Part shown: positions 18,127 through 63,810 of the stretch, piece after piece
How the letters are laid out: the number at the start of each line of letters is the position of its first letter
How positions within the stretch are numbered: the stretch's first letter is position 1
Assembly: GCA_910589415.1 (NCBI GenBank)
Contig: OU342632.1
Coordinates: 42,025,341-42,089,340 of the forward strand
Reading direction: 5' to 3'
From: Malachius bipustulatus
Taxonomy: Eukaryota; Arthropoda; Insecta; Coleoptera; Melyridae
Length of the DNA: 64,000 nt
Translations under genes and position numbers: made by a program
Notes under the pieces: generated by a model
Seen by the model: only the letters and a program-made list of their open reading frames with translations
What the model was told of the DNA's origin: nothing
Databases searched by the model: none

Positions 18127-18414
18127 TACGAAATAAGGCCGGTTCCCACTTGTACGACGTCCTACGACGCGGCGCGTAACCGCAAACGTCGTCTCCAATA
18201 CTTCGCATGTAAACTTATGTAGGTGTTCCCACTAGCACTGCAACGGCACGACGTTGCCGCAGCTTCCCCCCTCTGACTGTCGTTGAGCGTTAGAACGGAC
18301 CTGTCGCAGGCTATCGAACGGGTTTCGAATTATTGTATCCAATAACTCCCGATCATAGGTATTTGCAAAAAGTTTCTCAGTTAGTGTAGGTATGTAAATT
18401 TAATGGGACGTTGT

Positions 18415-18646: not shown

Positions 18647-18681
<35 letters not shown>
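18647..18681. repeat. (AT)n microsatellite at the left edge of the hammerhead array
   Basis: About 17 AT dinucleotides, directly abutting the first 573-bp unit. The same position in the second unit is preceded by unit sequence, so the microsatellite marks the array border. Confidence 0.9.
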
Positions 18682-18687
<6 letters not shown>

Positions 18688-19253
18688 TTGATGAATTTTA
18701 TTGGGATTTAGGTTCTAATTTAAATTTGCCACTAAAGATTCTTTACAGAACAAATTAGAAAAACTTTCGTACAGCATGAGAGGAGAAGACTGAAGACATG
18801 GACGGTACCGTTTCGTCCTTATTATGGACTCATCAGCATATCATATCAGTCAGCTCTAAACCACACATGCTATACGAAATTTGGAAGTTGTATCTATTCT
18901 AACTGGTGTTTTCGTTTTTTAGTGACCTTTAATTTTCAAATGAGTGAGTAGGCAACCAGAGAAACGTGCGTGTCTTTATATAGTATTATCCTCGCTATAA
19001 CAGTAGAGTTTTCATGGGTTTATGAATTTTACACTACTAATGCAGAGGTTTCTATTAATTCAAGAACTACACATTGATTCTCATAAGTATATACCTACCC
19101 ACATTCATTTTCAAGCTAATTTTATTGAATTTTTACTGATGTGTATTTATAAATTAGATGTTACTACACGAATTAAGATGTTATGGCACATTTTTTCACC
19201 CTGGCCTTTTTAGATTTATAATTATTTTTATTGAACCACTTATTTGATTATAT
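18681..19253 (-). repeat. Hammerhead-carrying repeat, unit 1 (573 bp)
   Basis: First of two head-to-tail units. It starts AATATATTTGATGAATTTT and ends with TTGATTATAT. The only difference from unit 2 that I noticed is one base near 18920 (GTTTTTTAG against GTTTTGTAG), so the duplication is very recent or homogenised. A 63-codon plus-strand frame is present in both units, but it lies opposite the ribozyme strand and has no recognisable domain. The unit encodes a minus-strand hammerhead ribozyme (18788-18851). It is probably a non-autonomous retroelement unit of Penelope-like or retrozyme type; that assignment is inference. Confidence 0.85.
18788..18851 (-). ncRNA. Type I hammerhead ribozyme, copy 1
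   Basis: Read on the minus strand, the core CUGAUGA (18836-18830) is followed by stem II GUCC-AUAAUAA-GGAC (18829-18815), GAA (18814-18812), the palindromic stem III ACGGUACCGU (18811-18802), and C17 at 18801 in a GUC cleavage triplet. Stem I pairs GAUAUG (18842-18837) with CAUGUC (18800-18795, one G-U pair). After an internal loop (UAU against U) it also pairs GACUGA (18851-18846) with UCAGUC (18793-18788). Every invariant core base is present. Predicted cleavage falls between 18801 and 18800. The very short stem III suggests that cleavage is favoured in a dimer, as known for newt and schistosome hammerheads. Confidence 0.92.
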
Positions 19254-19857
19254 AATATATTTGATGAATTTTATTGGGATTTAGGTTCTAATTTAAATTT
19301 GCCACTAAAGATTCTTTACAGAACAAATTAGAAAAACTTTCGTACAGCATGAGAGGAGAAGACTGAAGACATGGACGGTACCGTTTCGTCCTTATTATGG
19401 ACTCATCAGCATATCATATCAGTCAGCTCTAAACCACACATGCTATACGAAATTTGGAAGTTGTATCTATTCTAACTGGTGTTTTCGTTTTGTAGTGACC
19501 TTTAATTTTCAAATGAGTGAGTAGGCAACCAGAGAAACGTGCGTGTCTTTATATAGTATTATCCTCGCTATAACAGTAGAGTTTTCATGGGTTTATGAAT
19601 TTTACACTACTAATGCAGAGGTTTCTATTAATTCAAGAACTACACATTGATTCTCATAAGTATATACCTACCCACATTCATTTTCAAGCTAATTTTATTG
19701 AATTTTTACTGATGTGTATTTATAAATTAGATGTTACTACACGAATTAAGATGTTATGGCACATTTTTTCACCCTGGCCTTTTTAGATTTATAATTATTT
19801 TTATTGAACCACTTATTTGATTATATAATATATTTGATGAATTTTATTGGGATTTAT
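19254..19857 (-). repeat. Hammerhead-carrying repeat, unit 2 plus 31 bp of a third unit
   Basis: Unit 2 runs 19254-19826, exactly 573 bp after unit 1. It is followed by 31 bp of a third unit start (19827-19857) before the sequence diverges into TTATTTATAATATTT. The head-to-tail junction is seamless. The tandem arrangement matches what rolling-circle or Penelope-type templates would give. Confidence 0.85.
19361..19424 (-). ncRNA. Type I hammerhead ribozyme, copy 2
   Basis: Identical in sequence to copy 1 and placed 573 bp downstream on the plus coordinate. Predicted cleavage is between 19374 and 19373 on the minus strand. Together with copy 1, a minus-strand transcript would release a 573-nt RNA with 5'-OH and 2',3'-cyclic phosphate ends. 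Confidence 0.92.
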
Positions 19858-22363: not shown

Positions 22364-22512
22364 TAGGTATAAAGGGTTGTCAGTTAAGCGCGCGTCGGTC
22401 TATAGCTCCTAATACAATGATGAGGTTGCGAATTTCGTTCATAAATCAATCTACATAATATAGATACTTAATATTTGTAAGTCTATTTTATAGGAAAATA
22501 TTTTCGAGTGTA

Positions 22513-23093
22513 CAAGGTTGCCTAAATAAGTGTGGCTTTATGAAAGTCATGTTTTTTGAATTGGACACCCTGTATATATTATTACATTTTCGGATTTTCT
22601 GAGAAAATCCAATAAGAGTGGTTTTCAGTTTAGTTCAGAGTAGGCCATGAGTTAAAACAGATGAAAATTTCCATTTTCCATTTTCAAAGCAGCTTACATT
22701 GAAAACGGCACAAGACATCGGAAAACGACTTTATATGACGCTATTTTAACTTTTCAAGTGTCACTTACAGTGTACTTGAAATTTTCATACAGCGGATAAA
22801 ATTTATTGCATCTACATCATAGGATAAGACGTAAAAAGTTAAAATACATGCAAGCCGTTTTACTATATCTTAAGCCGTCTGCAATGTAAGCTGCTTATTT
22901 GAAAATGGAAAATGGCTATTTTAATTGGTTTATAACTCATAACCTAGGTACCTACTAAATTTAAACTGCTATTTTGAAAACCATTCTTAATGGATTTTGA
23001 TTTTCTCAGGAAATTCGAAAATTTAATAATATACCGGGTGTCTTATTTAAATAACATGACTTTCACACAGCCACACTTATTTAGGCCACCTTG
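22513..23093. mobile_element. Foldback element with arms of about 250 bp and TA target
   Basis: The outer ends read CAAGGTTGCCTAAATAAGTG and, from the right inward, CAAGGTGGCCTAAATAAGTG. The arms stay alignable inward through GTGTGGC, GAAAGTCATG, GACACCC and TTCTGAGAAAATC, to CATTTTCCATTTTCAAA. Only a short centre is unpaired. Each arm contains an internal CACCCTG/CCGGGTG border about 61 bp from the end, as if one element were built on another. No coding capacity is visible. Confidence 0.75.
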
Positions 23094-23095
23094 TA

Positions 23096-23989: not shown

Positions 23990-24186
23990 CGTCGTGCCGT
24001 TGCAGTGCTAGTGGGAACACCTACATAAGTTTACATGCGGACTATTGGAGACGAGGTTTGCGGTTACGCGCCGCGTCGTAGGACGTCGTACAAGTGGGAA
24101 CCAGACTCAGGGTGAAATCCCCCCGCAATTCTGTCGTATTGCCGCGTTGCCGCTGCCGTCCGGTGTCGTACTAGTGAGAACCGGCC

Positions 24187-27680: not shown

Positions 27681-28079
27681 TTACAAGTTCAATTTCCTAT
27701 ACAACTCTGAGACAACAGCTAAAGCACCACCTGGTATGAATCTAACAAAATTATCACCCGCTAAAGGACCGATAGCGAACAAATTATCATAATTCTTCAC
27801 TAAATGCGTCAGCTTGTTAATATCAACAGTGTTGGTTTTGCAGTCGACTGGTAGATCCCTCTTGATGCCCAAATCGGTGCTCGAAGAAGGTAGGAAACTG
27901 AGATCAGGTCTTGAGCCTATTAAAATGGCCACAAAGGATACTTTGATCCTAACTATTTTTCCTGAGCTTGATTTTAAAGTAACTGTTCTTGTTGAGTCAT
28001 CCACGCCATCCAGAGAGAATCCAGCATATGAAGCATATAAGGGATAGCTGCTACCGCCATCTTGCATCATTTGGCTCAC
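27681..28079 (-). CDS. OSGIN-like exon 5 (last coding exon)
   Basis: Begins after CCTTTTCCAG with GTG AGC CAA ATG ATG. It encodes 132 residues including FVAILIGSRPDLSFLP and the C-terminal GPLAGDNFVRFIPGG. It ends at TAA (27683-27681). The annotated-looking ATG upstream at 28142 lies in the intron and is not used. Confidence 0.92.
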   Translation of the reverse strand: MSQMMQDGGSSYPLYASYAGFSLDGVDDSTRTVTLKSSSGKIVRIKVSFVAILIGSRPDLSFLPSSSTDLGIKRDLPVDCKTNTVDINKLTHLVKNYDNLFAIGPLAGDNFVRFIPGGALAVVSELYRKLNL

Positions 28080-31000
28080 CTGGAAAAGGAATGAATTAAT
28101 ATTATTATTATATAAAATTTTATTAAACTGGTTATGTTTCATATGAATGATCCTGATGGGTTAAAAAAAGTAAAATTGTACCATACCCAAACAGCACAAA
28201 GTAGTCCTATGGACGTCCAATGGACATCCCTCTATGTACCAACGGACGTCCATAGGACGTCCGTTTTTGTCCTATGGACGTCCATGGGACGTCCATTCAG
28301 TGTCCATTTGTCACAACTTTGGACATCCACAGGATGTCCGTTACCGGACGTCCATAGGACGTCCGTTATCGGACGTCCATTGGGAGTCCGTTATCGGATG
28401 TCCATAGAGAGTCCATTATCGGATGTCCACAAAGCATTTGCTGATAAATATCTTAGTGAGGAACAAAAGACAGAAAATATTCGATAAGTCTTTAAATTTA
28501 GAGTTTTGAAAAAATCCAATAAATGTAGTGAATAGGTTTAGGTATATACGGTAATTTTCTGTTTTGAAAGTAACGTTGATAACGGCTAAAAATGCAGGAA
28601 AACGACTAGGTACTTACCTACTTACGTGTTTCTATCATTAAGTTTTACGTAAAATCTGGTCATTTTCATTGAAAAGTTCTTAAGTATATTAGTTTATGAT
28701 AACATTGATAAACTTAATGAACATATTCGTTTTTGGATTTTTCACAAACTCTAAAAATAAAAAATTCATCGAATTTCTTTCTTTTGCTCACTGTAGGTAT
28801 AATGTTATAATGCAGATGTCTTCATCTTCACGCTAGTAGTCTTGAGATTGATATTGATGGGAATGGCGGAAGTCTTTCGTTGGAACGAATAGTATAATGT
28901 AGGAATGTGGATTGTATGATAGTGGAAGAATGGGGTGGTTAGCGCGTGCGTGCACTTTTGTGCTGCTATTCTCTTCCTGGCTGCGACGGCACGTCATGCG
29001 CAATAGTCAAAAATAACTCGATGGACAAGAAATGGACATCCAATGGACGTACTTTTGTGGACGTACATAGGACGTCCGTGCGGAGAAGTCCGTAGGACGT
29101 CCATTTATTGTCCATGGACCAATGGACGTATAATGGATACTCAACGGACGTCCATAGGACACTCGGTGCTATCTGGGTAGGTGAAGTAACTTGGGAATTT
29201 TTGTGATTAATATGGTTGGTTACATAATCCATCCTGTCTCATTTGATAATGACCAATTAAAACATCTAAAAGAAGTGGGAAAACCACATTTTGTGTCATT
29301 TTAGAATTATTTATATACTTCTAGAGATTTAGACTATTTTCTCAATAAGTAGGTAGGTGTAATACATATGTGGTTTAGATGGCATAAAAGTACTATATAC
29401 AGATACTATCTATTGGTAGGTTATTATTTCATTTAAAACTTTGCTGCATTTCAAGTTGCAAGATTAGTTTCTGTCAACTTTCTGAAATGCACATTGTTGA
29501 AATATTCCAACCAAACATTTACGTTTGCAACGTCGGTGCATTTCAATATTTCATTTCTGAAGTAAGTTTGCAATGTGCGCGGTTTCAACAGTAAAGCTTG
29601 CTGAAACATTGCAGCTGCAACATTATTCTCTTAACTTGCCGAAAGGTTTCAGCAACTTATTACCAAATGAAACTTGGAAAAGTAATCAAAAATCAACATG
29701 GCTGCAACATTTTGAAATTTTCAATGTCCAAAACCTTACTAAGGTACCTAATAATTTATCACTACAAGTATCTAACAATATTGGTACATATAAGTACAAC
29801 AGGAACAGCGAAATTTAAAAATGATTAGCAAGCTACTTGGGTGCAATTTTGAAAATAAGTTTAAAAATCAATGCAAAATGATTAATCAATTCCAATAATT
29901 TTGTCTTTCAGCCAGAAGTTTTCTTCTTATTTCTTTTTCTACAAACCTTCTTTAGGTTAATTTATTATGTATCTCTGTTCTCTCATCTCTATCTGAACCT
30001 TCATTTTTTCTGCTTATACCATATTACTCTTTTGTTATTACCATACCTCTTTTTCAAGGACACTTTTGACTTTCAAAATTGTTTGGTGGCTTTTGACTCC
30101 CAAAATTGTTTTGTGAACAGCTGAAAATAGGTCACTTGGTCTATTTGATTATTGATTTTAACTACATTAGTAAATTTTAATGATTTCTAGAACCGCTTTA
30201 ACAAGCAGGAGAATACCATCAAATTTTAACAAATACACTTCATGAGTATACTTCCACCCCATGACTATGACAGTCCAACTCTACTGTTATAATATGAGGT
30301 TTCATGAGGGTAACATTTTCTGATATGGTAGACATATTCTTCCATTCCTTGATTCATCATCTTTAATTATAAATTCACAAAACCTGCATGCATACTCTGC
30401 CACATCTGCTGAGGGATACGCAAAGAGCAATAATTAGGTAGCTATATTTTTACACATTTACGTAAATTGTAGATTTGGTGGTCTCATATGGTCTTGAGTG
30501 CTAAGTTTAGCGCTACTTTTGCTGTATAGTACCTACATTGTGGTTTGCTCAAGTTAAATGCCTGAAGAGTCGATCTTAAGCAGAGTCCAGGATCCTTTCT
30601 TTGAAAGATACTGGAAGAATCTTAGGAAGAGATATAAATGATGCAAAAGAGATGCCTTTCTAAATATAAAGACTATGTTTACAAAAACCATTTTACTGAT
30701 AAATTTTTGTCTTTAAATTTACAGAAATAGTAAAACTTTATTAAAAGGGTTAAACGCCCTAGAGAACTCACAAAAGCAAAAGATGCTGCTCAACAGAAAT
30801 ATAACTCAGCCCCCACAACATAATAAATTTACGAACAAGATTTATTTATACCTTATGATACTCAGGATACATATTTTCTGGCAATTGCCTATTGAGATCA
30901 GCCGACTTATTCCTGAACACGTGAATGACTGGAATGTTTCTCTCTCTAGCAGCTATCACAGCATCAGCGGCACTGAGTCCGGCCCCAATGACCACCACAG

Positions 31001-34000
31001 GGTCTATCGGTTGCTCTTGCATCCCCGATTCTGTTTCACTGGCAAAATTGTCTATGAGCGATTCAAGACTTCTCAAGTCATGGACCAGCCACTCGGGATC
31101 TTTGCCTTTGTCAACCTCCAATCGGTTGGGTTTGTCACTCGCCCCGTTTGCCAGAACCAGGTAAGTGCAGGTGAAGGTTGTTATCTCACCTGAAAGAAGA
31201 TAAACGAGGTATTAATAATAATGAAATATGTTCTTGCAACTTGATTATGAAAGAAATGATCAACAAGTAGGTATACGGTTTCGGTTGGATATATTTTGAA
31301 AAATTTTTCTTGGCATAATGATTTGCATGACTTCTAATTAATATAGGTATGTTTTAGGGTTACTGGTTTGAAGGAATATAATTCAAAAAGGAAAAATATA
31401 TCCCAGAATGTGATTGGAAGAAATAATAATATCCTAAGCATCGCTTTTCAGCTGCCTATTCTCTTTTGAAGTAGTAAAAATCTTGGTTTAAGAGTTTCAT
31501 TTAGTAGGAGCTGGTTTTGAAATTATAAATTAAGGTGGAAAGGAGAAAGGAAGTACTTTTCGAAAAAAATGTGGTCTCTATCATGGTAAAAGAGCGGTAA
31601 TAAGTCAACTTATTGAGCCTTTTAAACATCACTTTCAATAATAATAATAAATTATTGTATATTGGTCTGACTGCTTTGATGTCATCCTACAGAGGCTGAG
31701 TAGCTGGCAGCCAAACAATATTAGTCACCAGAACTGGAAAATGGCAACTCTAAAAAGAATATGTCCTGATAAATCTTACTCTATTACTAATACATAGGGT
31801 ACCAAGTCTAATCTAAGTTTATCTCAGTAAAAACAAGAAAATGCATTCAACCCATGTATTCAGCCCATTAAAAAAAATTATTTCAAATAAACCATTGCCA
31901 ACCGAAACAGTAACTTTTTTCTTCTAACTCACCAGTTTCCATATCACAGGTTTCTACTATCCAGTTTGCTTTCCCTTTGTTGTCAATCTGATTACAAGCT
32001 ACAGGCACTTGGTGAGCACTGGTAAAGTCTAGACTATAAGAGTTCCTTAACGTATAACTTACATTATTCATATTGTTAGATTTATTTCTACTATGGAAAT
32101 GATCACATAAATTACTACTATCACAGCATAAACTAATCGATCTATCTTTTTTATATTGTTGCTTAGGATTTACAATAAAGTCATGATCGTTCAACGCTAT
32201 TTCTATAATTTTTCTTGTAGGACTCTGATCGTTACAACAGAGCTGGTCTCGAGGCCGCTTACAACATCGAATCTGCTTGTTCTTGCGTCCAGTTCTGAGA
32301 ATGTACTTGATCGCACTGCTCAGTAAGCACGACTTTTCTTCAATTATCTCTCTTTGTAAACAAAGATTATTCTGATCATTTTGCCTTATATTCCTCTCAA
32401 TTTCAATTTTATGTCGCGATTCTCTATTATTGAACTGTCTCGGTCTCGATGGCGGAGATGGCTTATTCGTCTGAGCATCCGCCACTGGTTTTACATGCGT
32501 TACTAGCACGCCACTTTGAAAGTTATCGGAGAGTCCCATTTCTTGTACATACTGCACATAATACTTGGCAACGTCACAGGCAAAGGCTCTCTGCTCCCTC
32601 GAATCTTTTGAAGGAAAAGGTAAGCCAGGTAAAGCCATCCAGTTGCTTAGGGAGAGAGTCAGAATGTGCGGATCCATCGTATGCCAAGAACCTCCAGGAG
32701 GACCCTTACCCAATACGATATGGTCAATCTGGAAACAGTAAAAATATTTTAGTTGATCGTAATATTTTATTATTGCACAGACAGTATGAGAGACAGGTGT
32801 TTCATATATAAATGTAACTATTAATGAATGAACTTGGCAACTATTCATAATCTCAATATGCTGTAATTTTAGGTTTCCGTTTCTATCAACTCACTTTACG
32901 TCCGACTTTGCTGAATTCAGCTAACGGCGTCATTTCCAAACCGAGATCAGCACAAGGATGGAGCAGGGCGTCCAGTAAGAGGCTGACAGGGTTAGTAGAG
33001 CGACCCTCCAGTCCTGAAGCGAGGTGTCCCAAGTCTGCATCAACCAAGCACTGGCCGTTTTGGTCTTGTAGACGAGCTGAGAGCATTTCGTCGGGGTGGC
33101 GAGATCCATTAACATGTGGTAGATAGCCGGACAGCATGTATGATAAGGCGATTCCACTAGGACCGTTACCTGTGGAAAAAAATAATCAATGAAGTTAAAT
33201 ATTCATATCTTGATCAAACTTGGATAACATGATTTAAACACAAAGGAGAGAAAAGTCATTGTTACTTTTACTCTTTATTCAAAAATTGCTGATTTGTCAA
33301 TAATGAAATTAACAGTTTTATGAACTTTCCTGAAATTAGTCATAAAATCAGGTTATTTTTTTAAAGAGAGGTGGGGGTAAGAAGAGTTGAAGATAGAGGT
33401 AGTAAATTATTTTTAATATTATAAAACAATTTTATAAATTATTATCTGAGCTTTTACTCAAGGTTGGTTCAGTCCTCTGGGAATAAGAATATACTTTTAG
33501 TGGAAAATTAATAAAGCCTAAGAAATTGGATAGATAAAAAGATGAAAGCAGGTAAACATCATGATTAGTTTACTCCATTATCATAATAATAAGGTGACCT
33601 GATTCTATCAATCATAGCTTATTATATTTTCTGCATTTCCTTTTTATTTTATTATGGAAAATAAATGTCAACATGGGGCGGAATTTATAAATATAAAATC
33701 AGAAGGAAAAGGAAATGGTTGTATAAACTGGTTTTGAAATAAAAATTTTGCTTGCAAAGTAAATCTGCACCCTACCGCATGAAGGAGGAGTATTTTGCAT
33801 AACAAAGGATTGGAGATTCCTTTACGGAGATAGTTTTGGGGGCTGGGAGGGGTGTTTACCGTTTTTTTTACCGTTTTTTGAGAAAAAACTATTTTAGAAA
33901 AAATGCTCGGAACTTGGGTTCTTTATCGTGAATCTTTCAAGCATCTATTTGAAATTTTCCCCCAACGGCTTCTTTGCTGACCCCAATCTAAAAGTTAAAA

Positions 34001-36635
34001 GTTTCTCCTAATCTCTAAATTGAAAAACTACCGTATAGGAATAGGTTTATGGTCTGAAGGGGGCCCTTCAAGTAATTATGTACTGTGAGAACGACTCCTC
34101 TTCCTTCTTCCTGGTCATCTTTCTGGGGATTTTTTTGCATTTATCTAAAAGTCGTAAACATAGGTTTGAAACCGCGTTTTGAAGAGTTTTCTAACTACCC
34201 AATGGAAGGGCAATTCCAATTTTTTGTTATTCTATAGTGTGGGGGCTTAATTCTTAGGCAAGCAAAATTTTGAAAATTTATAAATTTAACACAGGGTGAT
34301 TTTTTTAGTGGTCTACTATTATAGAAGTATAATGTAGAAAACCAGAAAAAGCTAAAGATCTCAAATTTTTGTGACGGCTGTTACGGTTTAGGTTTAAAAA
34401 TTTTCACTGGAAATATTTCCAAAATAATATGAAGAGAATGATTATTCCTCTTTCTGCCCATTTTTATGGTGATTTTTTATTTGAAATCTAGTCTAAAAGA
34501 AAGTCTCCTACTTAAATGGAATTGATTATTTTCAAGGATATATTCAGTAGATTTTCTTCCATTTTTTTAGTCTGAAAACGAGTTCCCTATTCCATTTTTC
34601 TATGGTTTTTTTATAAACATTCATCTAAAATCGTACTGCTTCAAACCTGTTTACGACTTAACAGCGCTAGCTGTTTGAAGAGTGTTAGTTCAAACTACCC
34701 CATGGAAGAGGAATTCCAATTTTTTTTATGTGCAGTGTGGGGGCTTTTGAGGCAACATTCTTTTTGAAAACTTATATTTACTCCAAGGGTGTTTTTTTAG
34801 TGGTCCATTGAAAGTATATGCAGAACGAGAAAAGCTAAACATCTCAAATTTTGGTGACGGCCGTAATGGCCTAGGATCTATAGATTGGAAATATTTCCAA
34901 AAAAATATTTCCAAAGTCTGAAGAGAACGATTTCTCTTTCTATCCATTTTCTGGGGATTTTTTGCACCCATTTATCTGAAAGTCTTTAAGAAAATGCCCC
35001 CCTATTTAATGGAATAGATTATTTTCAACCGTTTTCAGTATACTTTTTCTTCCTATTTTTACAGTCCGAAGACGAGTTCCCTTTCCCATTTTTCTATGGA
35101 TTTCTTGCAAACGTTCATCTAAAAGTCGTAAACAGGTTTTAAGCAGCTGTTTGAAGAGGAAATTCGAGAGAAATTCAAACTACCCTATGGCAGAGGAATT
35201 CCAATTTTTGTTATGCTGCGCGGACTGTGGGGCTCTTCAGGCAAGAAAAAGCAAAATTTTGAAAACTTATATTTACTACAGTGTGTTATTTTTTAGTAGT
35301 CCATTAGAAGTATGGAGAAATAGAAAACATAAATTTACACAAAATATTTCCAGGATCTAAAGAGAACGCATCTTCTTTCTGTCCATTTTCTGAAGATTTT
35401 TTTTGCAAGCATTTATCTAAAAGTCGCAAACAAAGTCCCCTCCTACCTAACGGAATAGACTATTTTAAACGATATTCAGTAGGTTTTCTTCCTTTTTTTG
35501 CAGTTTGAAGACGAGTTTCATTTTTCCATCTTTCTGTGGATTTTTTTGCCACCATTTATCTAAAAGTCGTAAACGAGTTTTAAACTTATGTTTGAAGAGT
35601 GTTAATTCAAACTACCCCATGGAAGAGGAACTCAAATTTTTATTATGTTGCAGTTTGGAGGCTTTTTAGGCAAGAAAAATTTTGAAAATTTATATTTAGA
35701 TTTTTTAGTGGTCTATTAGAAGTACCTATACGGAAAAACAGATAAGCTAAAGATCTCAAATTTTGTTGAAGACCGTTTATGATGCTTAAAAGATTTATTT
35801 AGACAAAATTAATGGAGAATGGAATGTTTATAAGTATTTTAATCGAGAAAACATTATTAATCCAATGAAATTAGAATAAAATTTAAAACTTACATAAACG
35901 CCGGGAAAATGTTTTATACATCAGTTAGTACCTACTCGTATGTGAGTAAATTAAAAGTCGTTATAAATGGAAGTCAATAATTTTAATTACACCAACTTTC
36001 TTCACTCCATGAAGTATAAAATAAAACAAAAAATAATAAAATCAAAGGCAATAATAAAAAAGTAGAGTAATAAAAACTCAAATAATTAAAACGACTGTCT
36101 TTTTCAATGGCAGAAATGAAATTATATACACAGGTAACATTTTAATTTTTATCAGAACTCAAAAGCAAACTTTTTCAGGTTGGTATTTGTTCTAACCCTT
36201 ATGTTTATTTTTCAGACTGAAAATTCACGCAAGACCTAATTCATTAAGCTCATTATTTTTTGCTCATCGTATGCAGAACTGGGCTGCCAGAGCCAGATAA
36301 CAAAGAGGACAAATTGGAACGTTTACTTATTTTCTGGTCTATTTTTTGTTTTGATCATTTTAATCCTGAAAAACGAAACAAAATCTCGTTAAATGTTCGG
36401 GTCTTTGGATGGAGAGCCATATACTACTCTGGATACCTTTAATAAGCAATGAAATGATACATTACTTCAAAAAAATGAGAAGACAAAAACATAATCACCG
36501 TTCTTTGGGATATAGAACGAAAAGAATAAAATAAGAATCAGCTAAGATTAATTTTTTTCATGATTTTTTTTTAAACTTACCTATGATAACAACATCTTTG
36601 TGGACTGTGGTATTATTTGTATTCTCACGCCTCAT
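27681..36635 (-). CDS. OSGIN-like flavoprotein (oxidative stress-induced growth inhibitor), five coding exons
   Basis: Joined from 36635-36581, 33169-32895, 32728-31933, 31189-30852 and 28079-27681. The total is 1,863 nt, 620 residues. All junctions have GT-AG borders and the phases agree. Family motifs in order: VVIIGNGPSG (FAD dinucleotide fold, residues 15-24), HVNGSRHP, LEGRSTNPVSLLLDALLHP, GKGPPGGSWH (117-126), LSLSNWMALPGL, VVVIGAGLSAADAV (second nucleotide-binding motif), LPENMYPEYHKV, and GPLAGDNFVRFIPGGALAV near the C-terminus. These match vertebrate OSGIN1/2, predicted FAD/NAD(P)-dependent oxidoreductases linked to stress and growth control. No signal peptide or membrane segment is seen. 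An insert of about 165 residues (roughly 192-360), polar and Cys/Lys/Arg-rich, makes this protein longer than the usual 480-560. Start context CGAAAAAATG is good. Confidence 0.93.
28184..29179. mobile_element. Foldback element with GGACGTCC arrays, inside OSGIN-like intron 4
   Basis: The outer ends are inverted: the left reads TACCCAAACAGCAC and the reverse complement of the right reads TACCCAGATAGCAC. Inside each end lies a degenerate array built from GGACGTCCATAGGACGTCCG-type words: about 240 bp on the left (28199-28440) and about 150 bp on the right (29015-29165). Because GGACGTCC is itself a palindrome, the arrays can pair within and between arms. The interior (28440-29000) is unique and non-coding. 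No target duplication is obvious. The open frames across the arrays are repeat artefacts. Confidence 0.75.
29180..30851. other. Remainder of OSGIN-like intron 4
   Basis: Intronic AT-rich sequence. Between 29450 and 29710 words of the TGCAAC/GTTGCA and TGCATTTCA type recur several times on both strands. This may be a decayed repeat. No separate gene is supported. Confidence 0.5.
30852..31189 (-). CDS. OSGIN-like exon 4
   Basis: Acceptor TCTTCTTTCAG, donor AAG|GTATAA. It encodes about 112 residues from EITTFTCTYLVLANGA through VVVIGAGLSAADAVIAARER to LPENMYPEYHK. The GAGLSAADA motif is the most diagnostic piece of the family. The plus-strand frame here is its shadow. Confidence 0.93.
31190..31932. 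other. OSGIN-like intron 3
   Basis: 743 bp, GTGAGT donor and TTTCAG acceptor on the minus strand. No embedded element is recognised. Confidence 0.7.
31933..32728 (-). CDS. OSGIN-like exon 3 with lineage-specific insert
   Basis: Acceptor TGTTTCCAG, donor ACTG|GTGAGT. It encodes about 265 residues. The first 80 (HIVLGKGPPGGSWH to VLVTHVKP) and the last dozen or so (NWIVET) match the family. Between them are about 165 residues without counterpart in vertebrate OSGINs: first Pro/Ser/Arg/Asn-rich, then with scattered Cys pairs (CCKRPRDQLCC, CCDSSNLC). The insert is in frame and lacks splice-like borders, so it is likely translated. It would sit in a surface loop. Confidence 0.88.
32895..33169 (-). 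CDS. OSGIN-like exon 2
   Basis: Acceptor TTTTCCACAG, donor AAA|GTGAGT. It encodes about 92 residues including the end of the GNGPSG flavin motif, YMLSGYLPHVNGSRHPDEML and ASGLEGRSTNPVSLLLDALL, all typical of the family. Confidence 0.93.
33170..36580. other. OSGIN-like intron 1 (3.4 kb)
   Basis: Begins GTAAG at 36580 and ends CCACAG at 33170. It contains the satellite-like array at 33780-35790. The rest is AT-rich and featureless. Confidence 0.8.
33780..35790. repeat. Degenerate tandem repeat, period about 430-500 bp, in intron 1
   Basis: Four successive blocks share a fixed order. A phrase like TCTAAAAGTCGTAAACAGGT occurs near 34143, 34624, 35119 and 35561. Then comes GTTTGAAGAGTGTTA..AACTACCCCATGG, then GAGGAATTCCAATTTTTTT near 34207, 34705, 35189 and 35623, then TTTTTTAGTGGTCTATTAGA. 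Copies differ by many point changes and indels. No coding capacity is seen. Confidence 0.75.
36581..36635 (-). CDS. OSGIN-like exon 1 (start exon)
   Basis: Short coding piece of 18 codons plus one base: MRRENTNNTTVHKDVVII, then G split by the intron (donor G|GTAAG). It completes the flavin-binding GxGxxG with exon 2. It was too short to be found as an open frame by itself. Confidence 0.9.
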
Positions 36636-37302: not shown

Positions 37303-37312
37303 GTTCTGATTT

Positions 37313-37888
37313 AAATTTGCCACTAAAGATTCTTTACAGAACAAATTAGAAAAACTTTCGTACAGCATGCGAGGAGAAGACTGAAGACATGGACGGTACC
37401 GTTTCGTCCTTATTATGGACTCATCAGCATATCATATCAGTCAGCTCTAAACCACACATGCTATACGAAATTTGGAAGTTGTATCTATTCTAACTGGTGT
37501 TTTCGTTTTGTAGTGACCTTTAATTTTCAAATGAGTGAGTAGGCAACCAGAGAAACGTGCGTGTCTTTATATAGTATTATCCTTGCTATAACAGTAGAGT
37601 TTTCATGGGTTTATGAATTTTACACTACTAATGCAGAGGTTTCTATTAATTCAAGAACTACATTGATTCTCATAAGTATATACCTACCCACATTCATTTT
37701 CAAGCTAATTTTATTGAATTTTTACTGATGTGTATTTATAAATTAGATGTTACTACACGAATTAAGACTTTACGAATTAAGTTACTACTAAATTTAGTGG
37801 CAAATTTAAATTAGAACCTAAGTCCCAATAAAATTCATCAAATATATTAAATAATCAAATAAGTGGTTCAATAAAAATAATTATAAAA
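37313..37888 (-). mobile_element. Third hammerhead element, single copy with inverted end
   Basis: 576 bp flanked by the direct repeat GTTCTGATTT (37303-37312 and 37889-37898). From 37313 to about 37770 it follows the 573-bp unit almost exactly, starting at AAATTTGCCACTAAAG. The last 100 bp or so (about 37787-37888) are the inverted copy of the unit junction region (equivalent to 19213-19310). A short duplicated AATTAAG phrase marks the switch point. An end that inverts part of its own sequence is a known habit of Penelope-like insertions. The 10-bp duplication shows that it inserted as a mobile element, not as a satellite. Confidence 0.8.
37379..37442 (-). ncRNA. Type I hammerhead ribozyme, copy 3
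   Basis: Same 64-nt sequence as the other two copies, with all core bases and stems intact. Predicted cleavage is between 37392 and 37391 on the minus strand. The surrounding unit has small changes (GCATGC for GCATGA at 37370), so the ribozyme is conserved while its flanks vary. Confidence 0.92.
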
Positions 37889-37898
37889 GTTCTGATTT

Positions 37899-39835: not shown

Positions 39836-40246
39836 TCTTTATCTTCTCTTTGCCGAATGACATTGGGCAGAGCATTTACAATATAATAATAAATGGCAAA
39901 AAAGAGAGACTGATGACAGAGACACTGGGTGAGACTGATGCCACGTGACTATACCGTCATATTTTGGTGATAACTGGTCGCTGACAACAGCAACCAATGA
40001 CACACCTACTCCTCCAGTTCCGGATTGATCGCGATTGCGGATGGATCGATAGTCAGTCAGGGAGTGAGAATTCTGTTTTTTATCGGTTTAGTGCTGGTGA
40101 AATAATATCAGGATAAGTACAGTATAATATACAATTGCTTAGTTTAAATAATAATTTTGTTCCTTTTATTTATTCTTTTTCAAATTCTGTCTCAACGTAA
40201 AATAAATATTATAGGTATTTTTAATAAATTTTAAGTAGTAGTTACA

Positions 40247-41680
40247 ATGCCCGTCGACTCGGGCGGCCAAGACCGGCCGCCCGATACGGTATCAATATCA
40301 GTAAATAATCATACTTTATCGTCGAATGTAGTAGAGACAGCCTCAGTCAGTAGCCAAAATAATTCCCGTTATGCTATTGATTTTAGTAATGTATATACAT
40401 CATCTGATACAGGTCCTTATTTCGTGCATGTCGAAAGCATAGATAAAAATCTCGGTAGGCTTTTTCCTATTCGAATTGGTCATTATTTGAGATTCGATGA
40501 TTTTTATAAGAAGGCAGTGCAAGATATTAAAATAGCAGGTAGAAATAGGGTTAAAGTAATTCTGGACACTTACCAAGCAGCTAACAAGTTAATAAATAAC
40601 GAATTGCTGACAAAAAACGGATTCGTAGCATACATACCTAAATATTACACGCAGCGAAAGGGCATTGTAAGGATGGTTGATACCTTCTTTGACGAACAAT
40701 ATCTGCTCAATGCAATTGAGAGTAACAAACAAGTGGTTCAGGTAGATAGAATGATGAAACGAGTAACTGATGAAAAAGGGGAGAGCATTTTGGTTAAAAG
40801 ACAGATGATCATTGTTTCCTTCATAGGTTCAGTTTTACCGCAAACTATCAAAATAAACGGAGTTATATTTCCCGTAGAACCTTATATTTATCCCGTAGTT
40901 CAATGTATGAAATGTCTATCTTACGGTCATGTTAAAGCTCTTTGTAGAAAAGATAAAGAATTATGTAGAAGCTGTGGTGGAGTGCATCTGACAACAGATT
41001 GCAAGGCTGAAGCTCATTATTGTATTCACTGTAAAAGTAACGATCACTCATCCACATATAGGGGATGTCCGCATTATCAAAGACAGAAGCGTATCAAAAC
41101 TATTATGTCCACCAAAAATGTTACCTTCAAAGAGGCTGAAACATTAGAAAAAAATCCATCCTACTCTAGAGTGACTGTAAATAATAGGTTCAGTATACTC
41201 GATAATTTAACGAATTTCCCTACTCTAGTTCAAAATTCTGCTCCAATGCAAAATAATTATCCTTCCTTTAAGCCACACATGAACACAAAAAATACCAAAA
41301 CTCGAACACAGACAAATACTCAAACATTTCACCCGATTTCTCAGCAGAGTTTGCAAGGTACCCCAAAGAAGAGGAAAGCAAATGATTCGAATAATCCAAA
41401 TTCACCTTCATCAAATCCAATAATCCCGAATCCTTTTAGGAATGATTTCAGAGCGTATAAAGAGAAATTAGCTGACAAAATAACGTCGTTTGTTATGTCA
41501 AAGTTAGCCGGCCATCAGGATAGTCCTCAGAAGGACGCTCAAAATTTTATAGGTGATGAGGTGGTTATAAAAGAGGGTGTTTTTGCTTTAATTGATGATT
41601 TAATTGATAAACCAGACGCTAGACAACCAAATAACAAATCGATAGATGTAGACATGGTAGATGATGGAGACTTTTACTAA
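40247..41680 (+). CDS. I-like retrotransposon ORF1 protein (nucleic-acid binding)
   Basis: 477 residues. Three zinc knuckles lie at residues 220-274: CMKCLSYGHVKALC (CX2CX4HX4C), CRSCGGVHLTTDC (CX2CX3HX4C) and CIHCKSNDHSSTYRGC (CX2CX4HX6C). The region before them has the size and character of the ORF1 RNA-binding fold of these elements. The C-terminal third is Asn/Pro/Ser/Lys-rich and probably disordered. In the family this protein coats the element RNA to form the transposition particle. The stop (41678-41680) overlaps the 5' end of the ORF2 frame. A GC-rich start (DSGGQDRPPD) contrasts with the AT-rich rest. Confidence 0.9.
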   Translation: MPVDSGGQDRPPDTVSISVNNHTLSSNVVETASVSSQNNSRYAIDFSNVYTSSDTGPYFVHVESIDKNLGRLFPIRIGHYLRFDDFYKKAVQDIKIAGRNRVKVILDTYQAANKLINNELLTKNGFVAYIPKYYTQRKGIVRMVDTFFDEQYLLNAIESNKQVVQVDRMMKRVTDEKGESILVKRQMIIVSFIGSVLPQTIKINGVIFPVEPYIYPVVQCMKCLSYGHVKALCRKDKELCRSCGGVHLTTDCKAEAHYCIHCKSNDHSSTYRGCPHYQRQKRIKTIMSTKNVTFKEAETLEKNPSYSRVTVNNRFSILDNLTNFPTLVQNSAPMQNNYPSFKPHMNTKNTKTRTQTNTQTFHPISQQSLQGTPKKRKANDSNNPNSPSSNPIIPNPFRNDFRAYKEKLADKITSFVMSKLAGHQDSPQKDAQNFIGDEVVIKEGVFALIDDLIDKPDARQPNNKSIDVDMVDDGDFY

Positions 41681-44600
41681 ATTCATGGGGTTAAAAATTT
41701 TACAGTGGAATGCTCTTTCTATAAATAAACATAAATGTGATTTGTCAAAATTTTTGCAGGACAGTCCTGCGGACATTGTCCTTCTTACCGAAACATGGCT
41801 AAAGAGAAAGCATTCAAGTTTTAATTACAATGGTTTTAAATTGGTGAGAAAGGATCGAGAAGGTCAAAGGGCAGGCGGAGTAGGTATTTTGATTGCCGAT
41901 CACTTAGATTTTCAAATCGTGCAACTCGGAAATGTTCCACATAATAAAGTTGACTTATGCTCGATTAAACTAAACGACCCCAAATTAATTTTAGTCTGCA
42001 TTTACCGACCACCTAGAACTCACGTAAGCTGTGCGGAGTGGAGAAATATTTTTAGTCAATTGGGTGATACAAACTGTGTTGTGGGGGGAGACTTCAATGG
42101 CCATCATGTCTCTTGGGGCTCACCCAACACCGATTCATATGGCTCTACATTATATAATGCGATAGAGGACTGTAACTTAATTTTACTTAATGATGGTCGT
42201 CCAACTAGGATTTCCAGACCGTTGGAGGCTCCCTCTGCAGTAGACCTCACCATAGTCACTAGAGATTTAGTCGGTAGGACGGGCTGGAGTGTTCTCCCAG
42301 AACTGCTGGGCTCTGATCATTACGTCATTGAAATTGAAATTGATATCACGTTCACTAAGAAACAAAAAATCTCTTACAAAAAATGGAAAGAGTCTACAGC
42401 GAACTGGGAGGGATTCCAGGCTGACTTAGACAGGAAGTTAGGTGACTTAGACGGTAGGCAACCCCGAGATACGTACAAATATCTCATCGACTCGATAACT
42501 GAATCTGCTGATAAAAATCTTAAATCTACTAAACCCAAGGTAGTTAAGCATAAGCAGCCAATATGGTGGGATGACGAATGTAGCACGATATACAAAAAGC
42601 GAAAAGAAGCTTTAAGAATTTATAAAACGATTTCGAATCTCGACAACTTCCTTGCTTATAAAAACCTAGAAGCACAAGCAAAGAAAATATTCAAGAATAA
42701 AAGTAGAACTTCTTGGCGTAATTTTTTGGGGAAACTTAATAGAAGCACTCCAGCTACGGAAATTTGGCGATACATTAAGTGTATGTCCAACAAACATAAT
42801 TCTACATCAAGAGGATCCATCCCAGATCAAGTTTTGGAAGAGGTGCTGGACCAGTTGGCTCCTCCTAGCGTAGCTCAAGAGATTCAGATACGGAGAAGCA
42901 GTAGACCGCCCCAGCAAAATTACATTGGAAGTCCACTCAAACTTGCAGAGTTAAATAAAGTCACAACTACTTCTACAAACACAGCACCAGGAATAGATAA
43001 AATAACCTATAAAATTCTCAGTCATATGTCAACTTCTTCGAAGCAATTCATGCTGCGCATATTCAATAATTGGTGGGAGGAGGGAATATATAACGATCAA
43101 ATGAAGGAGATAGTAGTATGTCTGGTACATAAATTTGGTCACAACCTTACATCGCCTACATCCTACAGACCTATATCACTGATGCCATGTATCACCAAAA
43201 TATTTGAGAGAATAATTAAATCGCGTTTGGAACACTTGTGTGAATCAAGTGGAATCTTACCAAATAGTCAATATGGATTCCGAAGAGGTATAGGAACTCT
43301 AGATGCATTAAACCACTTGGTCGCGGAAATTCAATGCAGTTTGACAGAAAATAAATACTGTATGTGCATATTCATTGACTTAAGAGGGGCTTATGATTGC
43401 GTCAACCTTCGCCTGCTTGCGCAGGACCTATGCGACATCGGACTTTCGGACCTTCAAGCTAGAAATATTGTCAATTTATATAACAATAGAACAATTTACA
43501 TCAGAGATGAGCATAACAATCTTCATGGTCCAAGGTTAACGTCTTCAGGGATTCCTCAGGGTTCCATATTAAGTCCTTTGTTATTTAATATTTACACCCT
43601 ACAGATTCACCGCCTCTTTGACGATTCTACTAAGTGTATTCAATACGCCGATGACATATGTTTGTACAGCACTAAGAACACTTACAAGGAATGCGTGAGG
43701 GAACTGAGACGTACACTGTATATTTTGAAAAATTGGATAAATGATAGAGGTTTTCACTTAAATGAAAACAAATCAGCAGTCATGTTCTTTACAAGACACC
43801 GCGTGACTGCTCCAGAAATTATTAAAAATAATTCTTATAAAATTAAAACAGTCAAGACCTACAAGTATCTTGGGATCCATCTTGATCCTAAATTACTGTG
43901 GACCAAACACATTGAATATATCCAGAAAAAATGCGAAAGAGGACTAAATATGTTGAAAGTAGTTGTTCATACCAAATGGGGAGCCGATGTGGACACTTCC
44001 TTAATTTTTTATAAAACGTATATAAGGTCTATTCTGGATTATGGATGTACACTCTTTGGATCCACCTCCAATTCCAACATGAAGAAATTGTGTCGCCTAC
44101 AGTGGAGCGCTTTGCGTATTTGCTTGGGTGCCATGAAATCGACTCCAACCGAAATATTAAATGCCGAAGCCCAAGAACCAGATTTGAAGATTAGAATCCA
44201 GTATTTATCAGACAAATACCTCATGAAGATTAGATCCAGATTCCCCGATCTCCTCAGACAAATATACTACTTGGCATTAGAAAACCTTACCAACAAATTG
44301 TGGCAGAATAGAAATAGCCCTCCGTTAACGGATTCATACCTAAGAACTCAAGAATATGAACGCTTCATCTCTCCTTCCCCCATGCTCCCTATTTTCAATC
44401 TAAAATATCATGAGATATATTCACAGCTAAAAGTCATAATTCCCACGTATAGTGAAAACGAAAATTTGAATTTAATAACTCTTAATTATGCCCTGCAGCC
44501 GTACCCCGACTATATTCATATTTACACTGATGGATCGAAGTCTTACGATGGAACAGGCTGCGCCTATTATGTTCGTCAGTTACAGCATGGGTGTAAATTC

Positions 44601-45380
44601 AAACTCAATGGCCTAACTTCGATATTCACTGCGGAATTATGCGCCATTAAAAAAGCCTTACAATGGATGATAGATCAAAAACGACATAACGGTGTCATTA
44701 TCTCAGATTCACAATCAGCTTTAAAAAGTATTAAAAACTTCAGTTTCCATCAGTCAAGAAACCAAATCCTGGTCGATATCATCAAATTGGCCCACCAGCT
44801 AGAGGTATCTGGTCATGTAGTCTTTCTTTGGACTAAGGGACACTCGGCAATTCCTGGAAATGTTATTGCGGACGGTCTCGCAAAGAGATCTATTCGTGAT
44901 TTTGATGATATAGTTGAAGATTTGACATTAGAGGATATAAACATCTGTCTAAAGGAAAATGCTCACGCCACCTGGATACTACATTGGAATAGGTTCTTAC
45001 TCGCCACAAACAATCCTTACAAGCACATTCATCCACAGCTACCAAACAAGTTGGAAGTCGGATTATACAGGAAGTCCAGAGCCCTTTCAAGTACAATTTT
45101 TAGATTAAAAACCAATCATGGTAGATTTCCATCCCACCTGTTTAGATTGGGCCTAATTGGAAATGGCCACTGTACATGCGACAATAATTCTACAGCAGAT
45201 CTCAACCACATAATCTTCTCCTGTAGTAAGTACAACGATCAGCGTGTAGATTTCTTCAACCACTTAAAGATGATAGCAATTCAACACCCTATTTGCCTAA
45301 TAAGTCTACTAGGTTTGAAAGATATACAGATCTATCTTGCATTGTATAAGTTTTTCAGAGATATCAATTTAGACATATGA
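41661..45380 (+). CDS. I-like retrotransposon ORF2 polyprotein (endonuclease, reverse transcriptase, RNase H)
   Basis: Up to 1,239 residues. Endonuclease: ILQWNALSINKHK, LLTETWL, CIYRPPR, VVGGDFNGHHVSWGS and LLGSDHYVIE within the first 230 or so. Reverse transcriptase: SYRPISLMPCITKIFERII, QYGFRRGIGTLDAL, FIDLRGAYD (571-579), SGIPQGSILSPLLFN and QYADDICLY with YADD at 662-665. RNase H: IYTDGSK (Asp957), FTAELCAIKKAL, ISDSQSALKSI and TKGHSAIPGNVIADGLAKR, so all four acidic positions are present. A CTC...H...C motif follows near the end. The product nicks target DNA and copies the element RNA there. The first ATG overlaps ORF1 by 20 nt. The ATG at 41685, 4 nt after the ORF1 stop (TAAATTCATG), is an equally good start and suggests stop-restart translation. 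Confidence 0.93.
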   Translation: MMETFTKFMGLKILQWNALSINKHKCDLSKFLQDSPADIVLLTETWLKRKHSSFNYNGFKLVRKDREGQRAGGVGILIADHLDFQIVQLGNVPHNKVDLCSIKLNDPKLILVCIYRPPRTHVSCAEWRNIFSQLGDTNCVVGGDFNGHHVSWGSPNTDSYGSTLYNAIEDCNLILLNDGRPTRISRPLEAPSAVDLTIVTRDLVGRTGWSVLPELLGSDHYVIEIEIDITFTKKQKISYKKWKESTANWEGFQADLDRKLGDLDGRQPRDTYKYLIDSITESADKNLKSTKPKVVKHKQPIWWDDECSTIYKKRKEALRIYKTISNLDNFLAYKNLEAQAKKIFKNKSRTSWRNFLGKLNRSTPATEIWRYIKCMSNKHNSTSRGSIPDQVLEEVLDQLAPPSVAQEIQIRRSSRPPQQNYIGSPLKLAELNKVTTTSTNTAPGIDKITYKILSHMSTSSKQFMLRIFNNWWEEGIYNDQMKEIVVCLVHKFGHNLTSPTSYRPISLMPCITKIFERIIKSRLEHLCESSGILPNSQYGFRRGIGTLDALNHLVAEIQCSLTENKYCMCIFIDLRGAYDCVNLRLLAQDLCDIGLSDLQARNIVNLYNNRTIYIRDEHNNLHGPRLTSSGIPQGSILSPLLFNIYTLQIHRLFDDSTKCIQYADDICLYSTKNTYKECVRELRRTLYILKNWINDRGFHLNENKSAVMFFTRHRVTAPEIIKNNSYKIKTVKTYKYLGIHLDPKLLWTKHIEYIQKKCERGLNMLKVVVHTKWGADVDTSLIFYKTYIRSILDYGCTLFGSTSNSNMKKLCRLQWSALRICLGAMKSTPTEILNAEAQEPDLKIRIQYLSDKYLMKIRSRFPDLLRQIYYLALENLTNKLWQNRNSPPLTDSYLRTQEYERFISPSPMLPIFNLKYHEIYSQLKVIIPTYSENENLNLITLNYALQPYPDYIHIYTDGSKSYDGTGCAYYVRQLQHGCKFKLNGLTSIFTAELCAIKKALQWMIDQKRHNGVIISDSQSALKSIKNFSFHQSRNQILVDIIKLAHQLEVSGHVVFLWTKGHSAIPGNVIADGLAKRSIRDFDDIVEDLTLEDINICLKENAHATWILHWNRFLLATNNPYKHIHPQLPNKLEVGLYRKSRALSSTIFRLKTNHGRFPSHLFRLGLIGNGHCTCDNNSTADLNHIIFSCSKYNDQRVDFFNHLKMIAIQHPICLISLLGLKDIQIYLALYKFFRDINLDI

Positions 45381-45545
45381 ATTAGATTTAAGCGATAAAT
45401 GTTCATTGGTATAATTTTAGTTCCTTTGTTTACTATCCTCGTGTTTCAATAACCTGACAATTCGAGGGTCCAGTGATTGTTTGTGCTTTAAAGTCATCCT
45501 GATGGACCTCTGGATGCGAGTATCCCTGTCTCTTCCCAATAAGGT

Positions 45546-45716
45546 TTTTTGGAAAAAAAATTATAAAAAAAAAAAAAACAAAAAAAAAAAGATCTTAAAA
45601 AAAAAAAAATTGAAAACAAAAAAAAAAGAAAAAAAAAACAAAAAGAAAAAATATATTAAAAAAAAAAAATAATAATAATAATAAATAAAAAAAAAAAGGA
45701 AAAAAAAAGAAAGGAT
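45546..45716 (+). repeat. A-rich 3' tail of the I-like element
   Basis: About 170 bp of A-runs broken by single C, G or T and a short (AAT)n block near 45670-45684. It follows a 3' untranslated region of about 165 bp. The 63-codon lysine-rich frame here is an artefact. Confidence 0.85.
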
Positions 45717-48310: not shown

Positions 48311-48981
48311 CAGGGTGAGTCAGTTTTTTGTAGAGGACTTCAGAACTTCGCCAGTTTATAGTTTTTTATTATATTGTCAAAGGATTTAAGGAATAAAAGT
48401 TCCCCTAAACATAAATATGTCCGGAAAAGCTTAGAAAAAAAGGTACAGGAAGTTAAATTTTTTTTTGTACTTTTCGCCGCAAAACTTGGATATTTTTCAA
48501 TATTATAATTTTATACTTTAATGTAGAGCACAAAAACAAAGAAAACACGTGTGAAAAAATTAATCAGTGGCACAGATACAGGGAATATGACCTCTTTTTT
48601 GCTTAACAACTTCTACGCCCATGAACTTACAAGACCTTACTACTAATCAGCGTTAATTGATAAGTGCACCTTTTTTTGTAAGAAATCTCCAAGGAATCCA
48701 ACGCTTATAAGTAAGGTCTTGTGAGTCCATGGGCGTAGAAGTTATTGAGCCAAAAAGGGGTCATATATCCCAGTATCTACGCCACTAATGAATTTTTTCA
48801 CCCGTGCTTTTTTTCTTTTTTGCGCTCAAAATTATAATAAATAGTGAGAAATGCCCAAGTTAGGCTGCGAAAACTGATTTTTTTTCAACACCTTTGGTAC
48901 CACATTATGGTAACTTTGATTCCTTAAAACAGGTCTTTTATAAACTGGTGAAGTCCTGCTAAAAAAAACTGGCTCCCCCTG
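48311..48981. mobile_element. MITE family E, copy 1
   Basis: TA-flanked. The left end starts CAGGGTGAGTCAGTTTTTTG. The reverse complement of the right end starts CAGGGGGAGCCAGTTTTTTT, and both continue with GACTTCA..CAGTTTATA. Inner arms are also inverted, for example CTTCTACGCCCATGAACTTA near 48610 against the sequence near 48725 (AGTCCATGGGCGTAGAAG). A diverged copy lies at 50848-52036. Confidence 0.8.
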
Positions 48982-63124: not shown

Positions 63125-63810
63125 AAAATAATTTTTTGCGATTGCATCTACAGCATCTGTAGCTTGAAAAGGGTTCAAAAAAGGCCTTGAACGAGTCATA
63201 CAAAAACGTTCAAGTTACAATCCTTTAAAACACACAATATTGAGAATTATTTCCAAGGTTCGGAATATTTGGGGTAGATCAAATTTAAAGGTTCGGGGTA
63301 CATCTGCAGCTCTAAAAGGATTCAGAAAAGATATTGAAAGAGTCATACAAACTATTCGAGTTGTAATCCCTAAAAGACCTAATATTGAGGATTCTTTCTC
63401 AGGTTCGGGATATTTTGGCATGTAGAAAACAAATTTAGAGTTCGGGGTACATCTGTAACTCCAAAAGCATTCAGAAAAGACCTTGAATGAACCATATACA
63501 AATGTTACAGTTACAATCTTTTAAAAGACCCTGCACTGAGAATTCTTTCCAAGGTTAGAGATTTTTGGGGTAGATATGTAGGAAACAAATTTAAAGGTTC
63601 GAGGTATACCTGTAGCTCCAAAATCATCCAGAAAAGACCTTGAATGAGCCATACAAATGTTAGAGTTACAATCTTTTAAAAGACCAAACATTGAGAATTC
63701 TATCGAAGGTTCGGGATATTCGGGGTATGTAGAAAAAAATTTCAGGGTACATCTGTAGCTTCGAAAGGATTCAGAAAAGGCCTAGAATAAGTCATACGAA
63801 TGTTTCGAGT
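63125..63810. repeat. Tandem satellite, period about 149 bp
   Basis: A block of the form GGATTCAGAAAAGACCTTGA starts near 63171, 63319, 63468, 63622 and 63768 (steps 148, 149, 154 and 146). Each is followed by AGTCATACAAA, a GTTACAATCTTTTAAAAGAC phrase, and GGTTCGGGATATTTGGGGTA. Copies are about 80-90% alike by eye. Open frames on both strands are repeat artefacts. Confidence 0.85.

Follow-up and report, generated by a model that had tools for sequence, protein, structure and literature searches.

A probable hammerhead retrozyme of the beetle Malachius bipustulatus with insertion ends of the Penelope-like type

Introduction

A 64,000-nt stretch of the genome of the beetle Malachius bipustulatus, which we call the window, carries a short tandem repeat with hammerhead ribozyme motifs, raising the question of what kind of element this is and by which machinery it moves. 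Animal retrozymes have been described as elements of about 170-400 nt, insects being mentioned, for which a circular RNA was proposed as the transposition intermediate (Cervera & de la Pena 2020, PMC7229834). The mobilising enzyme was left open there between LINEs and Penelope-like elements (PLEs), with PLEs as a strong candidate, and retrozyme repeats are elsewhere said to lack a conserved motif from which the enzyme could be deduced (PMC7761336). As far as the available text of the founding paper (PMC7229834) and a review goes, the machinery moving animal retrozymes has been open until now, and the RNA circle has only been proposed as template. Two properties of PLEs are relevant here: an anole PLE inserts in vitro without the need of ribozyme cleavage (PMC11167929), and rotifer PLEs occur as inverted copies, mostly head-to-head, with a 31-bp tail on one copy and target-site duplications (TSDs) of 8-10 bp (PMC3846280). 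Hammerheads are also carried by the W-elements of Schistosoma, which are not termed retrozymes in the accessible part of their description, where the mobilising enzyme is not given either (PMC8490949).

Results

A tandem array with two hammerhead motifs

Comparison of the window with itself revealed a tandem array of two units and a partial third, all on the minus strand.

18676-19856, minus strand: tandem array, two 573-bp units plus partial third
18676-19248, minus strand: unit 1
19249-19821, minus strand: unit 2
19822-19856, minus strand: 35-bp partial third unit
18788-18851, minus strand: type I hammerhead of unit 1, 64 nt including a two-part stem I, predicted cleavage between 18801 and 18800
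19361-19424, minus strand: type I hammerhead of unit 2, predicted cleavage between 19374 and 19373

The period is exactly 573, since 18676-19283 is the same as 19249-19856 save for a single mismatch (18919 T, 19492 G), which bears out the tandem 573-bp repeat described in a first-pass annotation of this DNA; the dimer stands, but the limits given for it, 18681-19857, do not, the array being 5 bp longer on the left and 1 bp shorter on the right. The unit has a GC content of 30.9% (window, 34%) and is devoid of coding capacity, its longest circular frame measuring 71 aa on the plus and 41 aa on the minus strand. Because a circular ORF scan of the unit found no frame with reverse transcriptase (RT) and GIY-YIG, it is not an autonomous PLE; GIY-YIG was also not found among the 73 window ORFs of at least 75 aa, plus the ORF2 of a LINE. 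Searched against the whole window at E <= 1e-3, the unit matches its own copies only. The array is one-headed and without a clear TSD. We do not claim the 8-mer TATAATAT that flanks it as a TSD, because an 8-mer in common with that flank also turned up in 669 of 20000 random 30-mers. Near the array flank lies one copy of a 113-bp dispersed repeat, found at 18141-18253 and, inverted and 97% identical, at 23990-24102.

Each of the invariant hammerhead parts that the first-pass annotation had placed on the minus strand of both units was found in the sequence, and the two motifs are, as it had said, one unit apart, at a spacing of exactly 573. Both contain CUGAUGA and GAA, a 4-bp stem II (GUCC/GGAC) capped by a loop of 7 nt, and a GUC that is followed by the predicted cut. 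Stem III, ACG(GUAC)CGU, has 3 bp and a palindromic loop, while stem I is in two parts, GAUAUG/CAUGUC (6 bp, one of them G-U) and, beyond an internal loop, a distal 6-bp GACUGA/UCAGUC. The proposed check with the Rfam model Hammerhead_1 (RF00163) had a divided outcome, since both motifs match at 28.1 bits (E-value 2.5e-4 when 1.6 kb were searched, 0.0099 for the whole window) but fall below the gathering score of 34, a cut-off that nothing in the whole window passed. A relaxed hammerhead descriptor hit three window sites, against a total of four in 400 dinucleotide-shuffled windows. The unit's hammerhead had no match in viral contigs or in bacterial and archaeal genome contigs. Thus the two minus-strand type I hammerhead motifs of the dimer are confirmed as real at the sequence level, and their self-cleavage is predicted.

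Folded as a dimer, the 64-nt core gave exactly the double hammerhead, at -48.0 kcal/mol; the minimum fold of the single core, at -17.3 kcal/mol, is not a hammerhead. With 130 nt of context the double hammerhead lay 0.6 kcal/mol above the minimum and the single form 5.4 kcal/mol above it, and when the full 1181-nt array transcript was folded, stem II was predicted and stems I and III had almost zero probability in either the single or the double form. Compared with shuffles, the circular minus strand shows more structure (z -4.4) and the plus strand does not (z -0.05).

A third copy and other features of the window

The view of the locus as a dimer was right for the array itself and incomplete for the element, as a third copy had been missed, and most copies elsewhere in the genome (44 of 57 loci) are head-to-head rather than plainly tandem.

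37303-37898, minus strand: third copy of the retrozyme, with a 10-bp target duplication at both ends
37313-37767, minus strand: its direct part
37768-37792, minus strand: 25-nt filler
37793-37888, minus strand: its inverted part
37379-37442, minus strand: type I hammerhead of the third copy (Rfam match and sequence), predicted cleavage between 37392 and 37391

The third copy is bordered by the 10-bp TSD GTTCTGATTT (37303-37312 and 37889-37898), and pairs of random stretches had a 10-mer in common in 10 of 20000 cases. Its hammerhead core (37386-37433) is identical to that of the array, and its inverted part crosses the unit junction. The RNA coordinates used throughout begin with the base that follows the predicted cut (r=1) and end with the cytidine that precedes it (r=573); the copy ends on the right at r159 and starts at r79, which is not the site S1 defined below. 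The 10-nt target end of this copy can pair with the RNA by nine Watson-Crick pairs and one G-U pair (11 of 200000 random sites); however, microhomology priming was dropped as a rule of the family, because starts are fixed at S1 and S2. We also dropped the idea that RT halts on meeting its own start, 15-35 nt beyond a whole lap in both window inserts, since inner ends are scattered in the wider sample.

The window holds further features, as follows.

40235-45712, plus strand: intact-looking LINE; ORF1, 481 aa; ORF2, 1239 aa, encoding endonuclease, RT and RNase H; A-rich tail; closest protein match 56% identical over 53%
27681-32890, minus strand: exons of an OSGIN-like flavoprotein gene
34104-35777: diverged tandem repeats, about 70-74% alike over longer stretches
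63154-63812: about 155-bp tandem repeat, close to the window end
22511-23095 and 48471-48873: two long palindromes, self-complementary at 73-75%, which may be fold-back elements

The best named matches of the hand-joined OSGIN-like protein are from Tribolium, Aethina, Leptinotarsa and others, which we take to be beetles, and the next is from a cockroach.

A dispersed family of head-to-head inserts

Across the 544-Mb genome (52 contigs), the 37-nt hammerhead core occurs 811 times (394 + 417) with at most three mismatches, as opposed to zero times for a reversed-pattern control in the same search. Copies are spread over at least nine contigs among the matches listed, and tandem arrays from dimers upward occur in this multi-copy dispersed family. 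A looser hammerhead pattern gave 762 matches, with further loop variants among those listed. Eight loop-variant loci were read, three of which (L094, L096, L097) match the window family at 69-81%, and the other five (L093, L095, L098-L100) are a second hammerhead family with a mostly CAAATA-like loop II; at least two loci of this second family, L093 and L099, are palindromes built head to head, their hammerhead strands directed outward.

We read 57 loci, namely the best 40 of 1485 candidates, which as top-scoring matches are biased to long inserts, and 17 new ones found with a 92-nt query, which gives long inserts no preference; these 17 span about 1.2-1.4 kb to one side, so that second arms may be missed. 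For the end counts, arms shorter than 40 nt were left out, interrupted arms were merged (L043, L045, L092), and an arm of L092 cut at the sequence edge was dropped. As many as 44 of the 57 loci are head-to-head inserts, in which an antisense arm is followed by a sense arm with the RNA 3' sides outward, and the remaining 13 are one-headed, some perhaps from the short sequence span.

The outer ends of these inserts are concentrated at two sites of the RNA.

18676-18688 (unit 1) and 19249-19261 (unit 2), minus strand: S1, inferred RT start site (r113-125), from the TSD-corrected ends of 28 inserts elsewhere in the genome
19212-19220 and 19785-19793, minus strand: S2, second inferred start site (r154-162), from the same 28 inserts

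Of the 101 arms counted, all 40 nt or longer, 57 start at S1, 40 at S2 and 4 elsewhere. The pairing of one S1 end with one S2 end was found in 37 of the 43 two-headed loci with both ends in view (binomial p 1e-7), four others being S1+S1 and two having another end; in the 17 loci not selected for length the rule is weaker, holding for 7 of 11 such two-headed loci. An exact TSD of at least 10 bp flanks 28 of the 44 two-headed inserts and is absent from 16, its length ranging from 10 to 17 bp, mostly 12-15, with a mode of 13. As a control, a 10-mer was shared in 85 of 1892 between-locus pairs. The TSDs are 87% A+T (323/372 bases). After correction for the TSD, the ends of the 28 inserts fall at r113-125 (median r119) for S1 and r154-162 (median r160) for S2, a median spacing of 41 nt that is at the edge of the published 30-40 nt range of PLE tails.

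Arms run across the predicted cleavage junction

Of the 97 arms that start at S1 or S2, 94 continue past r=1 into r=573, that is, across the predicted cleavage junction. The longest arm, in L016, measures 2849 nt or about five laps, and 39 of the 97 exceed 743 nt. The crossing of the predicted junction for up to five laps is as a circular template would give. Inner ends are scattered, and one of 97 lies within 3 nt of r=1; the cDNA of this arm (L044, position 1201) covers about one lap and a further 159 nt, stops at the predicted cut and is perhaps from a linear dimer.

Variants in these arms were counted without arms shorter than 100 nt and without 15 nt at each arm end. In the 40-locus set, non-consensus bases are rare in the hammerhead (8/5937 at r525-573 and 4/2525 at r1-20) and commoner elsewhere (300/30121 at r170-500 and 139/12286 at r21-110), the overall contrast between hammerhead and flanks having a Fisher p of 1.6e-21. 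Positions covered at least twice within a locus allow private variants to be told from those shared by laps or arms, which we read, from sequence comparison, as mutation after insertion and as template variation, respectively. Private variants are alike in and outside the hammerhead, 10/8344 (0.120%) versus 55/45522 (0.121%), and therefore the laps would have been identical, or nearly so, at insertion. Shared variants, on the other hand, are nearly missing from the hammerhead, 2/8344 (0.024%) versus 376/45522 (0.826%), which indicates that ribozyme variants would be missing among the mobilised templates.

Laps within one arm share 231 of 290 variants. The two arms of a locus have 82 of 134 non-consensus variants in common, versus 548 of 9126 between loci, and thus both arms usually appear to come from one RNA or one source. 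Three of the 31 two-armed loci share no variant between arms (L027, 0/9; L028, 0/2; L044, 0/1), and some inserts may therefore use two RNAs. A single circle would nevertheless explain most of the variant and lap data.

Penelope-like elements of the same genome

The best 150 of 775 GIY-YIG candidates were scored, and gave open frames of up to 921 aa, in tandem and head-to-head arrangement, one of the PLE frames carrying both RT and GIY-YIG. In each of the three PLE inserts that could be read at both ends, one arm carries a 32-39 nt tail. L061 has a 32-nt tail and a 13-bp TSD, the one clear TSD of the three; in L062 the tail is about 35 nt (read by eye) and the insert lies beside an AT repeat, no TSD being found there; and in L051/L052 the ends are 39 nt apart and the flanks share only an AT repeat. 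A pattern search located minimal hammerhead-like motifs of the PLE kind in several PLE loci, and the motif of L055 has an estimated cut some 85-130 nt before its start sites. PLE units about 3327 bp apart, most with 833-aa open frames, make up the array G000:C11:3382-82839, which reverses direction near 20-26 kb, like the head-to-head retrozyme inserts on a larger scale.

Similarity between the retrozyme and a PLE family was found next to S1.

19259-19282, minus strand: the 24 nt directly 5' of S1 (r92-115), 19/24 identical to the pre-S1 stretch of the L067/L071 PLE family

This match is the best of 573 positions and was reached in 0 of 2000 shuffles, though the comparison was post hoc, concerns one of four families, and S1 of L067 borders an AT repeat. 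In the other three families, F841, F823 and F833, likeness of the S1 flank was no better than in shuffles (940, 1226 and 1681 of 2000), and a search with the whole unit gave an E-value of 0.063. The match points to the L067/L071 family as the putative partner of the retrozyme. We discarded a likeness between the S1-S2 stretch and L070 (E 0.17): the match of L069 to L070 breaks off at base 1034 of the latter, and the likeness therefore seems to sit in flanking DNA.

Discussion

Judging from genomic sequence, the repeat is very likely (a probability of roughly four in five) a non-autonomous retrozyme whose RNA is predicted to be self-cleaved into a 573-nt circle, and which is copied into its sites by the RT and GIY-YIG endonuclease of a PLE. 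The retrozyme logic that the first-pass annotation had recognised gains support from a multi-copy insert with target duplications and from arms that pass through the predicted cleavage site over as many as five laps, and the likeness to PLEs that it had seen in the ribozyme extends to the insertion architecture, head-to-head with a tail on one arm. We propose that a minus-strand RNA is cut by its own hammerhead and closed, putatively by RtcB, into a 573-nt circle; a PLE enzyme would then stagger the target cut by about 13 bp, and each target 3' end would serve as a primer, with a start at S1 on one strand and at S2 on the other. RT would roll round the RNA circle for up to five laps, the two cDNA arms would be joined mid-insert at arbitrary points, and purifying selection on the templates would keep the ribozyme. 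Extended to animal retrozymes at large, the proposal is that they are circular-RNA parasites of PLEs, with a staggered cut of about 13 bp, both strands primed at two fixed sites 41 nt apart, at most five laps round one ribozyme-made circle and arms sealed head to head, so that each insert is a two-ended record of reverse transcription; we regard this wider proposal as probable.

The competing explanation closest to ours keeps the same element and the PLE machinery but takes as template a long uncleaved multimer transcribed from genomic arrays, the ribozyme trimming RNA without making circles that matter. Tandem arrays are present in the genome, the anole PLE could in vitro insert RNA that had not been processed (PMC11167929), and a homogeneous multimer could also yield multi-lap arms such as the 39 that exceed 743 nt. 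However, private differences between laps are no commoner outside the hammerhead than within it, so that the laps seem to have been identical when inserted, the strong conservation of the hammerhead among templates follows less directly from trimming alone, and only one of the 97 arms stops at the cleaved 5' end. We consider the multimer unlikely as the template.

Mobilisation by a LINE-type retrotransposon with an APE endonuclease, in which ordinary twin priming would make 5' inversions, is very improbable. L1-type twin priming does produce inversions, and the window holds an intact-looking LINE (40235-45380 with Exo_endo_phos, RVT_1 and RNase_H), although the unit has no likeness to it at the threshold used above. 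Yet inversions are the rule here, and outer ends at two fixed internal RNA sites are not predicted by 3'-tail twin priming; moreover, no consistent poly(A) tail was found at insert ends beyond the element's own A-rich bases, and the mark of L1-type TPRT, a single end with poly(A) or a conserved 3' tail, was not seen in the loci read. That the repeat is satellite-like and spread at the DNA level by recombination, extrachromosomal circles or gene conversion, its hammerhead being chance or a relic, would suit the tandem arrangement, and hammerhead repeats such as pDo500 have been described as satellite DNA (PMC2837043); but exact TSDs around 28 of 44 inserts, end points fixed in RNA sense, dispersal over at least nine contigs and conservation specific to the ribozyme make this hardly credible.

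A PLE-mobilised circle, the reading that we prefer, would place the element between known systems. With the metazoan non-LTR retrozymes (PMC7229834) it shares a canonical type I hammerhead, short non-coding tandem units, low GC (<45-50%), TSDs of more than 4 bp and a weak stem III whose loop is palindromic, as in dimer-acting forms; it differs in size, 573 nt versus about 170-400 nt, a range that is descriptive rather than defining, and in its two fixed start sites and head-to-head inserts, which are not described in the available text of that paper. PLEs (PMC11167929, PMC3846280) resemble it in head-to-head inverted arms, one of them with a tail of 30-40 nt, in two adjacent internal RT start sites, in the extension of both target strands and in AT-rich targets. 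In contrast to PLEs, the retrozyme has no ORF, its hammerhead is canonical with a stem III and not of the minimal PLE form, its TSDs are mostly 12-15 bp and not 8-10 as in rotifers (PMC3846280), and its tail stretch is itself not similar. The pDo500 repeat of Dolichopoda cave crickets (PMC2837043) is alike by description, being an insect hammerhead unit of about 500 bp with a proposed double-hammerhead mode, but was described as satellite DNA making up about 5% of one genome. Plant LTR retrozymes (PMC4918200, PMC7761336) are likewise non-autonomous, with a hammerhead-bearing unit and a circRNA intermediate, whereas they have a type III hammerhead, LTRs with PBS and PPT and a 4-bp TSD, and Gypsy machinery is suspected. 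Among the openly licensed papers listed by full-text searches, none has a title or abstract opening that describes PLE-type ends on retrozymes.

One genome thus gives both fossil records: the insert ends bear a signature specific to PLEs, and the laps and arms are copies of one homogeneous RNA that continue across the ribozyme junction. The inserts also show a ribozyme kept nearly free of inherited variants. A defined in vitro test becomes possible, in which a PLE protein is given the 573-nt circle, with predicted starts at r119 and r160. If the proposal is true, mobilisation by PLEs would answer how such animal elements move, and the retrozyme would offer a natural system of target-primed rolling-circle reverse transcription.
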